Part shown: positions 11,576 to 63,110 of the stretch, piece after piece
Numbering within the stretch: position 1 is the first letter of the stretch
Layout: the number at the start of each line of letters is the position of its first letter
Source: Pseudomonas sp. Irchel s3h17
GTDB lineage: Bacteria; Pseudomonadota; Gammaproteobacteria; Pseudomonadales; Pseudomonadaceae
Reading direction: 5' to 3'
Assembly: GCF_900187505.1 (NCBI RefSeq)
Contig: NZ_FYDL01000008.1
Span: forward strand, 124,001 to 188,000
Length of the DNA stretch: 64,000 bases
Made by a program: the position numbers and the translations under genes
Notes under the pieces: generated by a model
Seen by the model: the letters and a program-made list of their open reading frames with translations, nothing else
Told to the model about the DNA's origin: nothing
Database searches by the model: none

Positions 11576-11600
11576 GTGGGAGCGGGCTTGCCCGCGATGA
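11576..11600. repeat. Single REP unit
   Basis: GTGGGAGCGGGCTTGCCCGC at the start of this stretch is a palindromic REP core of the GCGGGCTTGCCCGC type. It stands alone, 20 bases before a doublet of a different subfamily. Confidence 0.7.
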
Positions 11601-11620: not shown

Positions 11621-11749
11621 GTGGCGAGCGAGCTTGCTCGCGCTGGGGTGCGAAGCGCCCCCAACAGGACCATTGCCGGCTTTCAGATCGAACTCGGTGA
11701 GTGTCTTGGGGCTGCTGCGCAGCCCAGCGCGAGCAAGCTCGCTCGCCAC
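11621..11749. repeat. REP doublet of the GAGCTTGCTC subfamily
   Basis: Two inverted units face each other: GTGGCGAGCGAGCTTGCTCG at the left and the reverse complement at 11730-11749. Each has an adjacent smaller hairpin (GGGGTGCGAAGCGCCCC at the left, GGGGCTGCTGCGCAGCCC at the right). The whole stretch can fold on itself and resembles a REPIN. It lies between the cyo operon and the convergent hypothetical gene. Confidence 0.8.
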
Positions 11750-15015: not shown

Positions 15016-15090
15016 CACGTGAGGATTTGGCGATCACCACAAGCCTAGGCTGTGTTCCATGAAACCTACGGCGAAATAAGGGAGAGGGCC

Positions 15091-15609
15091 ATGTATTCAC
15101 GGCGACAGATTCTGCTGGCAGGCGCTGGCCTGGGTGGTGCGGCGTTGGCGCTCGGTGCCCTGCCAAGGCTACTGGCCCCCACGGCACTGATCAGCGAGGC
15201 GAGCGCGGGCGAAACCTTCGAGGTCAACCACACCGAGGCCCAATGGCGCGCCATGCTCAGCGCCGAACAGTACGAAATCCTGCGCGAGGAGGGCACCGAA
15301 CGTGCCTACAGCAGCGCGCTGAACAACGAGCATCGCGACGGCACCTTTGCCTGCGGAGGTTGTGCGCTGCCACTGTTTTCATCGAGCACCCGGTTTGACA
15401 GCCACACCGGCTGGCCGAGTTTCTGGGCGCCCCTGCCCAACGCCGTGACCACGCGCCAGGACCGCTCCTACGGGATGGTGCGCGATGAGGTTCACTGTCG
15501 ACGCTGCGGCGGGCACCTGGGCCATGTATTCAACGATGGGCCACCGCCGACCGGTCTGCGCTACTGCATGAACGGCCTGGCGCTGACCTTCGAACCACGG
15601 AAGGCCTGA
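15091..15609 (+). CDS. msrB: Tat-exported peptide-methionine (R)-S-oxide reductase
   Basis: The 172-residue product begins with a twin-arginine signal (SRRQILLAGAG) and has a hydrophobic stretch to about residue 30, so the enzyme should work in the periplasm. The MsrB domain follows: zinc cysteines C88/C91 (CGGC) and C136/C139 (CRRC), HTGWPSF, GHVFNDGP, and the catalytic C159 in RYCMNG. It reduces the R-epimer of methionine sulfoxide. The ATG at 15091 follows GGGAGAG and gives the signal peptide directly. It leads the cluster msrB-dipZ-msrA. The usual cytoplasmic MsrB has no such leader. Confidence 0.93.
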   Translation: MYSRRQILLAGAGLGGAALALGALPRLLAPTALISEASAGETFEVNHTEAQWRAMLSAEQYEILREEGTERAYSSALNNEHRDGTFACGGCALPLFSSSTRFDSHTGWPSFWAPLPNAVTTRQDRSYGMVRDEVHCRRCGGHLGHVFNDGPPPTGLRYCMNGLALTFEPRKA

Positions 15610-15653
15610 TCCCATGCTCAGGTTCTTCTCTTACTTGCAGGCAGGTCATCATT

Positions 15654-17462
15654 ATGTGGCTGTTGGTTCTCGCTTATCTCGGTGGTGTGCTGACGATCGT
15701 CAGCCCGTGCATTCTGCCGGTACTGCCCTTTGTCTTCGCTCGCACCGGGCAGCCATTTGTCAAGAGTGGCTTGCCACTGTTGCTGGGGATGGCGCTGACC
15801 TTCGCGCTCGTCGCCTCACTGGCCGCGGTGGGCGGCGCCTGGGTGGTGCAACTCAATCAGTACGGTCGCTGGCTCGCGTTGCTGTTCGTAGCACTGTTCG
15901 GGCTGGCGTTGCTGCTGCCAAGCCTGGCCGAACGCTGGACGCGCCCGCTGGTGGCCGCCGGCAGTCGCCTGTCGCAGGCGGCCGGCGCCGATGCTCGGCC
16001 GCGTCCCGGCGCTTCGTTACTGATCGGCGTCGCCACGGGTCTGCTCTGGGCTCCGTGCGCCGGCCCCATCCTCGGACTGGTGTTGACCGGCGCGGCGCTG
16101 CAAGGGGCCAACATCGGCAGCACCTTGCTCCTGTTGGCGTACGCCTTGGGCGCCGCCACCTCCCTGGCGGTCGCCCTGCTGCTGGGCGGTAAAGTGTACG
16201 CGGCGATGAAGCGCTCGATCGGTGCCGGTGAATGGCTGCGCCGGGGGCTGGGTGCGGCGATGCTCGCCGGAGTGGCTGCCATTGCGCTGGGCCTGGACAC
16301 CGGGGTCCTGGCGCGGCTGTCGACCGCGTCGACGGGAGGTCTTGAACAGGCGTTGGTCACCCGCCTGGCCAGCCAGTCGCCCGGTGGCAACGGGGCGATG
16401 ATGGCGCAGCTGCCGACCGCCAGCGATCAACCGGGCGCCAGCATGATGGCCGCCGGTGGCGCGATGAAGAGGACCGCCAATGGCGCGGCCACCCTGCCGA
16501 TCGAGGGCATGCTGCCGTCGCTCGACGGTGCCGTGCAGTGGCTCAACTCACCGCCACTGTCCACGCAGGCGTTGAAGGGCAAAGTGGTGTTGGTGGATTT
16601 CTGGACTTACTCCTGCATCAACTGCCTGCGCACCTTGCCGTACGTCAAAGCCTGGGCTGAGAAGTACCGCGATCAGGGGCTGGTGGTGATCGGTGTGCAT
16701 GCACCGGAGTTCGCCTTCGAGCGTGACGTCGATAACGTGACCCGGGCCATGAAGAAACTGGGCATCAACTACCCGGTGGCCCTCGATAACGATTACACGA
16801 TCTGGCGGGCCTTCAACAACCAGTACTGGCCGGCTCATTACTTTGCCGACGCCCAGGGCCGCATTCGTTACCACCATTTTGGTGAGGGCAACTACGCCGA
16901 ATCGGAGCGGGTGATTCAACAACTGTTGCGCGAAGCCGGTGCCTCCGCAGTGCCCGACGGCTTGATCAGCGCCAGCGCCCCAGGGATGCAACGGGCGGCG
17001 CGAATGAGTGAAGTGAAGTCACCGGAAACCTATGTGGGCTATCAGCGCCTGGCGCATTTCGTACCCGTAGAGAGCCTGACGCCCGACGCGGTGGCCGACT
17101 ACAAGGTGCCGGCGATGTTGGCGCTCAATGACTGGGCACTGGACGGGCAATGGAACGTTGGCGCCGAGCATGCCACCTCGGCGGCTGCGGGCAGCCGTAT
17201 TGTCTACCGCTTCCATGCCCGCGACCTGCACCTGGTGCTGGGGCCGGGTAGGGAGGGCAAGCCGGTGCGCTTCAAAGTCACGGTCGACGGCCTGGCGCCG
17301 GGTGATGCCCACGGCACCGATGTCGCCCCGGATGGCAGTGGCAGCGTGACCGAACAACGGTTGTACCAGTTGGTGCGTCAACCCGGCGATGTCGCGGAGC
17401 GCACGTTCAGCATCGAATTCCTCGACCCGGGCGTCTCGGCCTATGCCTTTACCTTCGGTTGA
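15654..17462 (+). CDS. dipZ: DipZ-like CcdA/thioredoxin fusion, periplasmic electron carrier
   Basis: The 602-residue product joins a CcdA/DsbD-type membrane domain (about 1-215, six helices, with C19 in VSPCILP and C135 in WAPCAGP) to a periplasmic TlpA/thioredoxin domain (about 285-425, active-site C321-I-N-C324). It ends with the beta-rich domain known from DipZ proteins (about 465-602). By family logic it moves electrons from cytoplasmic thioredoxin through the membrane to periplasmic partners. Its neighbours show the likely clients: the exported MsrB and MsrA. A 44-base gap follows msrB and the ribosome site is weak. Regulation is presumably by the divergent two-component system. Confidence 0.9.
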   Translation: MWLLVLAYLGGVLTIVSPCILPVLPFVFARTGQPFVKSGLPLLLGMALTFALVASLAAVGGAWVVQLNQYGRWLALLFVALFGLALLLPSLAERWTRPLVAAGSRLSQAAGADARPRPGASLLIGVATGLLWAPCAGPILGLVLTGAALQGANIGSTLLLLAYALGAATSLAVALLLGGKVYAAMKRSIGAGEWLRRGLGAAMLAGVAAIALGLDTGVLARLSTASTGGLEQALVTRLASQSPGGNGAMMAQLPTASDQPGASMMAAGGAMKRTANGAATLPIEGMLPSLDGAVQWLNSPPLSTQALKGKVVLVDFWTYSCINCLRTLPYVKAWAEKYRDQGLVVIGVHAPEFAFERDVDNVTRAMKKLGINYPVALDNDYTIWRAFNNQYWPAHYFADAQGRIRYHHFGEGNYAESERVIQQLLREAGASAVPDGLISASAPGMQRAARMSEVKSPETYVGYQRLAHFVPVESLTPDAVADYKVPAMLALNDWALDGQWNVGAEHATSAAAGSRIVYRFHARDLHLVLGPGREGKPVRFKVTVDGLAPGDAHGTDVAPDGSGSVTEQRLYQLVRQPGDVAERTFSIEFLDPGVSAYAFTFG

Positions 17463-17501
17463 ACACGGCTTTTGTATTTTCAGCATTGAGGAGTGGACAC
17501 C

Positions 17502-18209
17502 ATGAGAGCCCGATTTACCTGGCGTCAAACCCTGTTGGGGCTGACGTTTGCCGGCGTCGTCGGTCAATGCCTGGGGTTTTCCTTCGGTGCGGCTGAAGAG
17601 GCGGTCGCCATCGCACCCCCCATCCTCGATGAAGCCCCCAAGGCCGGCAGCGAAACCGTGGTGTTCGCCGGTGGTTGCTTCTGGGGGGTACAAGGGGTGT
17701 TTCAGCATGTCAAAGGCGTGAAGAGTGCCGTCTCCGGTTATGCCGGCGGTACGGCCGACAGCGCGAGCTACGAGCGTGTCAGCGAGGGCGACACCGGTCA
17801 CGCCGAAGCGGTGAAAGTGACCTTCGATCCCACTCAGGTGAGCTACGGCAGCTTGCTGCAGATCTACTTTTCGGTGGCCCACAATCCCACCGAACTGAAC
17901 CGCCAGGGACCGGACACCGGCCCCCAGTACCGTTCGGCCATTTTTGCGCAAAGCACGGAACAACGCGCCGTCGCCCAGGCCTACATTGCACAACTGGACG
18001 CGGCCCATGCGTTCAGCAAGCCGATCGTGACCACACTGGAAACCTACAACGGCTTCTATCCGGCGGAGGATTACCATCAGGACTTCCTGACGGAGCACCC
18101 GACGTATCCCTACATCGTGATCAACGACCTGCCGAAAGTGGCGCAACTCAAACAGTTGTACCCCGAGCGTTATTCGCACAAGCCGGTGTTGGTGAAGGAG
18201 GGCCTATAG
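17502..18209 (+). CDS. msrA: Exported peptide-methionine (S)-S-oxide reductase
   Basis: The 235-residue product has a basic start and a hydrophobic segment (about 8-28), consistent with a signal peptide or membrane anchor. The MsrA domain follows with catalytic C59 in GGCFWG and the conserved GYAGG and HAEAVKV motifs. It reduces the S-epimer of methionine sulfoxide. I chose the ATG at 17502 after GAGGAG; a GTG three codons upstream is possible. The spacing to dipZ is 39 bases, so it is probably the last gene of the cluster. The stop codon lies inside the palindrome GGCCTATAGGCC, where a small transposable element has inserted. Confidence 0.92.
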   Translation: MRARFTWRQTLLGLTFAGVVGQCLGFSFGAAEEAVAIAPPILDEAPKAGSETVVFAGGCFWGVQGVFQHVKGVKSAVSGYAGGTADSASYERVSEGDTGHAEAVKVTFDPTQVSYGSLLQIYFSVAHNPTELNRQGPDTGPQYRSAIFAQSTEQRAVAQAYIAQLDAAHAFSKPIVTTLETYNGFYPAEDYHQDFLTEHPTYPYIVINDLPKVAQLKQLYPERYSHKPVLVKEGL

Positions 18210-18212
18210 GCC
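18202..18212. repeat. Left target-site duplication of the small element
   Basis: The 11-mer GCCTATAGGCC directly precedes the element and recurs exactly at 18388-18398 directly after it. It contains the msrA stop codon and is the core of a perfect 12-base palindrome. Confidence 0.85.
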
Positions 18213-18387
18213 TAATGCCGATCAGTTAAGCCAAAGACCAGCCGAACATAGACCCGTGGCGAGGGAGCTTGCTCCCGCTGGGGCGCAAAGCGGCCCTGTT
18301 TTGGGGCTGCTACGCAGCCCAGCGGGAGCAAGCTCCCTCGCCACAGGTTTCGTGTTCGGCTTTATTTCTCTTAACTGACCGGCATTA
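18213..18387. mobile_element. Short non-autonomous transposable element (MITE-like), copy 1, with REP cargo
   Basis: The 175-base element starts TAATGCCGATCAGTTAAG and ends with the reverse complement of TAATGCCGGTCAGTTAAG, so 17 of 18 terminal bases are inverted repeats. Subterminal AGCCGAACA is also inverted (GTTCGGCT at the right). It is flanked by a perfect 11-base duplication. No coding capacity is present. A REP doublet (18256-18344) fills the interior. A second copy lies at 42836-42950. Terminal repeats and 10-11 base duplications suggest mobilisation by an IS4-type transposase encoded elsewhere; that is inference. Confidence 0.85.
18256..18344. repeat. REP doublet inside the mobile element
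   Basis: GTGGCGAGGGAGCTTGCTCC at the left and its reverse complement at the right face each other, each with a side hairpin (GGGGCTGCTACGCAGCCC at the right). The core GGGAGC(T/A)TGCTCCC belongs to the same subfamily as the doublet at 62978-63110. Confidence 0.8.
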
Positions 18388-18398
18388 GCCTATAGGCC
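18388..18398. repeat. Right target-site duplication of the small element
   Basis: The 11-mer GCCTATAGGCC is an exact copy of 18202-18212. It marks the insertion boundary at the right end. Confidence 0.85.
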
Positions 18399-42696: not shown

Positions 42697-42794
42697 TGTA
42701 GGAGCGAGCGTGCTCGCGATGAATTCAAGAGTCGCGTTTAATCAGAAAGCACGCGCTATCGTTGACGACCATCGCGAGCGTGCTCGCTCCTACA
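42697..42794. repeat. REP doublet of the GAGCG(T/A)GCTCGC type
   Basis: TGTAGGAGCGAGCGTGCTCG at the left and its reverse complement at 42775-42794 face each other across about 58 bases. This core (GCGAGCGTGCTCGC) differs by one base from the doublet at 59191-59288 (GCGAGCTTGCTCGC). Confidence 0.8.
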
Positions 42795-42825: not shown

Positions 42826-42835
42826 CCCCGAAGGG
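42826..42835. repeat. Left target-site duplication of element copy 2
   Basis: CCCCGAAGGG directly precedes the element and recurs exactly at 42951-42960. Joined without the element, the sequence reads GCACCCCGAAGGGTGC, the hairpin of the suhB terminator. Confidence 0.85.
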
Positions 42836-42950
42836 TAATGCCGATCAGTTAAGCCAAAGACCAGCCGAACATAGTACCCGTGGCGAGGGAGCAAGCTCCC
42901 TCGCCACGGGTTTCGTGTTCGGCTTTATTTCTCTTAACTGACTAGCATTA
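42836..42950. mobile_element. Short non-autonomous transposable element (MITE-like), copy 2
   Basis: The 115-base element begins TAATGCCGATCAGTTAAG, identical to copy 1, and ends with the reverse complement of TAATGCTAGTCAGTTAAG. The left 40 and right 40 bases match copy 1 closely. The interior is a single REP palindrome (42880-42907), whereas copy 1 has a doublet, so the cargo has shrunk or grown between them. It is flanked by a 10-base duplication. Confidence 0.85.
42880..42907. repeat. Single REP palindrome inside element copy 2
   Basis: GTGGCGAGGGAGC and GCTCCCTCGCCAC form an almost uninterrupted palindrome. It is the fused outer arms of the REP doublet seen in copy 1, with everything between them missing. 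Confidence 0.8.
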
Positions 42951-42970
42951 CCCCGAAGGGTGCTTTCTGT
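42951..42970 (-). terminator. suhB terminator, interrupted by the mobile element
   Basis: On the minus strand the left arm AGAAAGCACCC (42970-42960 region) follows the suhB stop. Its partner arm GGGTGCTTTTTT lies beyond the element, at about 42831-42817. Removing the element and one copy of the duplication restores AAAGCACCC-TTCG-GGGTGCTTT with a T-run. The remaining halves may still pair weakly with the duplicated bases. Confidence 0.7.
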
Positions 42971-62977: not shown

Positions 62978-63110
62978 GTGGCGAGGGAGCTTGCTCCCGC
63001 TGACCTGCGAAGCAGGTCCAAGGCAGCCGATGAGTTCGTTCTGACGGAATGTGCTGATGGTTCTGGGGGGGGGGGCTTCGCGCCCCAGCGGGAGCAAGCT
63101 CCCTCGCCAC
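62978..63110. repeat. REP doublet of the GGGAGC(T/A)TGCTCCC type, with a G11 run
   Basis: GTGGCGAGGGAGCTTGCTCC and its reverse complement face each other across about 90 bases. A run of 11 G (63065-63075) forms part of the right side hairpin. This subfamily is the one carried by the small mobile element at 18213-18387. Confidence 0.8.

Follow-up and report, generated by a model that had tools for sequence, protein, structure and literature searches.

Short IS4-ended elements carrying REPINs between their ends in Pseudomonas

Several described systems come close to the element analysed here. The IS4 subgroup of insertion sequences has ends with the signature -AATR--------WTW and target duplications of 10–13 bp, and some of its members show a "spectacular apparent insertion specificity", according to the available text of De Palmenaer et al. 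(PMC2266710). Bacterial MITEs of the MITEPsy1/2 type, found in Pseudomonas syringae, are short and non-coding, have terminal inverted repeats and a target duplication like the element described below, and are moved in trans by a parent transposase. They differ from it in transposase families and target lengths, and no REPIN is reported for them in the available part of that source (PMC3189936). QMITE2 of Coxiella burnetii is a MITE containing a GTAG repetitive extragenic palindrome. In contrast to the present case, as far as the available text goes, the REP is treated there as a target of IS1111, the element belongs to a single species and its ends are not those of IS4 (review PMC10969869). 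The R6 repeats of P. fluorescens Pf0-1 are 177 bp long, occur in 50 copies and have long inverted repeats; the available text of PMC2718517 makes no link to IS4 or REPs, and they may be the same kind of element, judged from a comparison by description only. MITEs, IS4, REPINs and, with QMITE2 as precedent, a REP inside a MITE are thus already known. The recurrent composite of IS4 ends and REPIN is new: no description of REPINs inside IS4 ends was found in the literature searched, most subscription papers lying outside it.

The element shares with E. coli K-12 IS4 and the IS4 subgroup the identical 18-bp ends, the end signature, a duplication within 10–13 bp and the insertion specificity of some members (PMC2266710, available text). 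Unlike IS4, it has no transposase, and the homology stops at the terminal repeats. As in the REPIN and RAYT systems (PMC3116915 and PMC2817692, available text), the REPIN it carries is complete and belongs to classes that also exist free, and two Y1_Tnp genes adjoin such REPs. Unlike those REPINs, this one lies inside IS4 ends, the duplications border these ends, and the composite is the moving unit. The element is very probably a MITE that is moved in trans by IS4-type transposases with the REPIN as cargo, and composites of varied REPINs and arms very probably arose repeatedly.

The element next to msrA and its copies in the genome

The window is the whole stretch of 64,000 nucleotides analysed here, from the 5.5 Mb genome of Pseudomonas sp. 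Irchel s3h17 (45-contig assembly). A non-autonomous IS4-type element of 175 bp occupies positions 18213–18387 on the forward strand, as read from the sequence and from a genome search. Its left terminal inverted repeat TAATGCCGATCAGTTAAG (18213–18230, forward strand) matches one end of E. coli IS4 at 18/18 positions, and the right one (18370–18387, reverse strand; reverse complement TAATGCCGGTCAGTTAAG) differs from the left by one mismatch. Directly inside them, the left arm (18231–18255, forward strand) includes AGCCGAACA and the right arm (18345–18369, forward strand) includes its inverse TGTTCGGCT. Between the arms lies a complete REPIN of 89 bp (18256–18344, forward strand) made of two inverted REPs, GTGGCGAG...CTCGCCAC, with GTGGCGAG heads. 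The element has no gene of its own. Sequence and script both place the 11-bp target duplication GCCTATAGGCC at 18202–18212 and 18388–18398, and the msrA stop codon TAG (18207–18209) is within the left copy. The terminal and subterminal repeats, the duplication and the stop codon inside it are all as the initial annotation had described them. Its span of 18202–18398 takes in both duplications, but only 18213–18387 is the element proper. From the translations, msrA is preceded on the same strand, within 15052–18209, by an adjacent putative msrB-type gene with a Tat-like leader and a gene for a DsbD/thioredoxin-like protein of 602 aa.

The 18-mer of the terminal repeat, allowing ≤3 mismatches, matches the window 4 times, where shuffles predict 0.01, and the whole genome 125 times, against 3 for a reversed control pattern. 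The other two matches in the window are the bounds of a second element of the same family (42836–42950, forward strand, 115 bp), whose REP doublet has been reduced to a single long palindrome. The target duplication of this element, CCCCGAAGGG (10 bp), lies at 42826–42835 on the left, in a hairpin with A's to its left, and at 42951–42960 on the right. Free REPs or REPINs of four classes are found in the window at 11576, 11621–11749, 42697–42794 and 62978–63110; none has IS4 ends nearby except the one at 42697–42794, which stops 42 bp ahead of the second element.

A DNA search of the genome recovered 31 full-length copies of the window element's family (family A, 174–176 bp) at 31 places, besides shortened forms, two copies truncated at the start of a contig and four matches limited to the REPIN core. 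A target duplication of 10–12 bp with ≤1 mismatch borders 29/31 full-length copies, within the 10–13 bp of the IS4 subgroup; for the other two (L014 and L036) no duplication of this length was found at ≤1 mismatch. The family is short, non-coding, bounded by terminal inverted repeats, flanked by target duplications and present in many copies, as a MITE should be, and the earlier reading of the locus as a non-autonomous transposable element is borne out. The duplications adjoin the terminal repeats and not the REPIN, which indicates that the composite moved as one unit with the REPIN as passenger. Thus the whole element is not a REPIN-type moving unit. The view that REPs are here the cargo of a different element likewise stands, with free REPINs and two RAYT-type genes elsewhere in the genome.

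The REPIN interior has one orientation relative to the arms in 9 full copies and the other in 22. The inverted part is the interior of about 40 bp between the REP arms, which points to inversion by recombination or to hairpin flipping within the mobile element. Other families of the same genome have similar ends and other REPINs: elements of 216–219 bp with GTGGCGAGCGAGC heads, elements of 166–179 bp with TGTAGGAGCGAGC heads and a 155-bp element with a TGTGGGAGCGGGC head. From 100 of the 125 end matches, at least 50 distinct elements were collected. At one locus, three second-family elements stand in tandem about 327 bp apart with their flanks included, a local duplication of element plus host DNA. 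No full-length family-A copy was present among the matches listed from 56 other genomes, most of which match the REPIN core only, and a family-A-specific 36-mer had 0 matches in the named genome collection. The plasmid search gave no match, and the phage search gave one record, matching the REPIN core only.

IS4 ends across Pseudomonas and the question of present mobility

Each of the two end types of E. coli IS4, TAATGCCGATCAGTTAAG and TAATGCCAGTCAGTTAAG, has exact 18/18 matches in these elements, and TAATGCCGATCAGTTAAG fits the subgroup signature as given in the available text of PMC2266710. Relatives of the IS4 transposase InsG were detected at E≤1e-30 in 24/298 Pseudomonas genomes. Those at 48–56% identity have the same ends as the elements (one left end has two mismatches), and a second group at 35–39% identity has ends of the TAATGCTGTTCACTTAAG type, which come close to the second-family ends in the window's genome. 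The YREK signature, on which the assignment of the autonomous partners to DDE/YREK transposases was judged, is present at 25/25 partner loci, all in other genomes; at four of these loci the reading frame is broken. The initial annotation had proposed an IS4-family transposase from duplication length and end style; the two exact end types, together with autonomous Pseudomonas IS4s that share these ends and the type of target, now support this proposal. In IS4s of Pseudomonas, among them those at L085–L090, the end on the transposase side has an inverted copy and a run of T's after it (TAATGCCAGTCAGTTAAGCTGACTGGCATTTTT), so this terminal repeat apparently also serves the transposase gene as a terminator.

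The initial annotation had also called for a search of related Pseudomonas genomes for paired ends. When 298 Pseudomonas genomes were searched with patterns that joined the terminal repeat across a gap to nine bases from the opposite end and did not require a REP, short IS4-ended elements were found in 66/298: gaps of 5–65 occurred in 23 genomes, of 66–126 in 35 and of 127–187 in 45. The reversed-pattern controls were all zero, and the 8 genomes found by an earlier pattern with gaps of 95–125 are all among the 66. A separate scan of named genomes, for one end together with one head variant, returned at least 119 stretches; the 80 matches listed come from Pseudomonas records and from one metagenome-assembled genome whose label goes no further than Gammaproteobacteria.

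At E≤1e-30, no IS4 transposase was found in the 45 contigs of the window's genome, and its four PF01609 matches are without such ends. An IS4 transposase was detected in 7/66 carriers and in none of the other 59/66, and carrier status showed no association with IS4 presence (Fisher p=0.44). Because the genome has no partner of its own and only 7/66 carriers have IS4, the elements may be relics here, and many of the families may be so too. The elements are also not plain internal deletions of the present-day IS4s compared, since only 1/235 arms matches the interiors of 25 autonomous IS4s; the parents may have been other or extinct ones.

These observations bear on whether the family still moves. 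It could be a relic that was amplified once and has since been retained, or favoured by selection, as an RNA hairpin or transcription terminator, and the missing transposase, the lack of association with IS4, the strong fold-back structure and the insertion in terminators all agree with this. However, nine copies are close to one another (97–99% and 93% identity) and their duplications are intact, which suggests fairly recent movement and is silent on present mobility. We hold loss of mobility to be a serious possibility, with the balance slightly on the doubtful side.

REPIN cargo and free REPs

The 89-bp doublet of the window element has the features of a REPIN, i.e. two inverted REPs with G-T-R-G heads that form a hairpin, in a genome with RAYTs. 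The 21-bp family-A REP has 394 exact copies in this genome, and two RAYT-type (Y1_Tnp) genes are present, each adjoining REPs. Free REPINs of the window share 85% identity with the REPINs of second-family elements (B) and 87% with those of third-family elements (C), and the family-A REPIN (89 bp) is 59% identical to the one free REPIN with which it was compared (133 bp). Tandem arrays of REP units were also seen in G000, with five same-orientation heads every 231 bp at C23 27141–28085 and four every 175 bp at C24 83538–84083.

REP content was then counted in the 145 distinct elements from the fetched loci (50 own, 95 others), with a list of REP heads compiled after the data had been seen. A REP head was present in 134/145 elements versus 229/5376 flanking stretches of the same length (4.3%), and of the 54 genomes in which an element was mapped, 47 hold one or more with a REP head. 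Among the 11 elements without a REP head, 1 has a one-mismatch head, 4 have a GGGGCTGC-type palindrome, 3 are likely deletion remnants and 3, from one lineage, have another palindrome. There are at least 10 REP-head variants among the elements. The arms fall into 19 clusters (70% identity over 20 nt), and REP heads occur in 14 of them, a rough figure at the 70% level. Where an arm has fewer than 20 nt, the compared stretch extends into the REP, which if anything merges clusters. REPIN capture between IS4 ends therefore looks recurrent.

The idea that an element's REP class simply mirrors that of its host gave a mixed outcome. In 80 kb from each of ten carrier genomes, the class was also free in six (G018, G209, G073, G189, G017 and, for one of two classes, G010), was not found free in G067, G303 and G129, and in G170 no REP heads at all were seen. 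That it was not found free in the 80 kb of G067, G303 and G129 is expected if elements import REP classes. REPs as mere targets of insertion sequences do not account for the arrangement, since the REP lies within the ends and not around them.

The composites could also have formed by nesting, with REPINs hopping through RAYT into pre-existing MITEs, so that the IS4 ends served as a landing pad and REP-free MITEs were ancestral. Consistently, the REPIN borders within elements are those of free REPINs, two RAYT-type genes adjoin REPs of the same classes, and the differing REP heads within one arm cluster are what replacement or repeated insertion would give. In contrast, the size-unbiased search left only 11/145 elements without a REP head, and the empty ancestral MITE was not found among them. 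We consider such nesting possible, and rather doubt it.

Target sites, terminators and the movement of the composite

An 11-bp duplication at ≤2 mismatches was found for 30/50 own elements and 30/95 elements of other genomes, and was absent for 20/50 and 65/95, respectively. When right flanks were dealt to other elements, chance duplications amounted to 1.7% for own elements and 0.6% for the others. The target consensus is C-N5-G, with C at position 3 and G at position 9, and the left flank is A-rich and the right flank T-rich. Empty sites were reconstructed by removing one copy of the duplication and were then scored as rho-independent terminators. Terminator-like empty sites made up 18/30 of the own sites versus 9/1047 control positions, and 16/30 of the sites in other species versus 7/1380. 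The insertions of autonomous IS4s were terminator-like in 14/17 cases, which indicates that the target preference is shared with autonomous IS4 members. The score was failed by 12/30 own sites, including the site of the window element, which is a short palindrome. At four loci in related species, the window element is absent from the msrA–lysR junction; these relatives are about 79% identical, and the absence is seen at the level of the junction, not as an exact empty target.

The flanks of the own copies can pair with each other more strongly than expected. The median flank-to-flank duplex was −22.9 kcal/mol (n=22) versus −11.0 kcal/mol for simulated insertions (n=440), and duplexes of ≤−20 kcal/mol occurred in 14/22 real versus 29/440 simulated cases. 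With the element in place, ≥10 flank pairs were present in the fold for 26/30 real versus 84/120 simulated insertions, a weak separation. For retained termination, duplex energy thus discriminates better than the weak count of flank pairs. The stable hairpin and the intergenic position could suggest that these ends belong to a regulatory RNA or to a fixed repeat of the genome instead of a transposon. This reading is highly improbable and is contradicted by the target duplications, which 29/31 full copies have of their own, and by the ends, which are those of IS4.

How IS4-type transposases would move such a MITE can be proposed as follows. A transposase supplied in trans would bind both 18-bp ends and, probably by cut and paste, excise the element and insert it in a GC-rich hairpin loop, mostly that of a rho-independent terminator. 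The insertion would duplicate about 11 bp of the target, and the REPIN would be copied along with the element. Since the element is nearly self-complementary, its insertion would lengthen the terminator hairpin instead of simply breaking it; termination would presumably be retained, and such insertions may be tolerated for this reason.

A further-reaching and rather unlikely idea, offered tentatively, is a standing partnership, in which the REPIN would be a near-obligate and repeatedly acquired module of the short IS4-ended elements of Pseudomonas. Its self-complementary core would spare termination in a terminator loop, two transposases would be involved (RAYT for the core, IS4 for the ends), and REP classes could be carried into genomes without matching free REPs.

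The spread of REPs is usually credited to RAYTs alone. Alongside their own transposase, REPs seem to possess a second means of spreading, as had been supposed for this locus. If whole REPINs are also moved by IS4-type transposases, in several separate backgrounds, the copy number and class of REPs in a genome would not be a record of RAYT activity only, and the targeting of terminators would offer a concrete, testable idea for why these insertions are tolerated.
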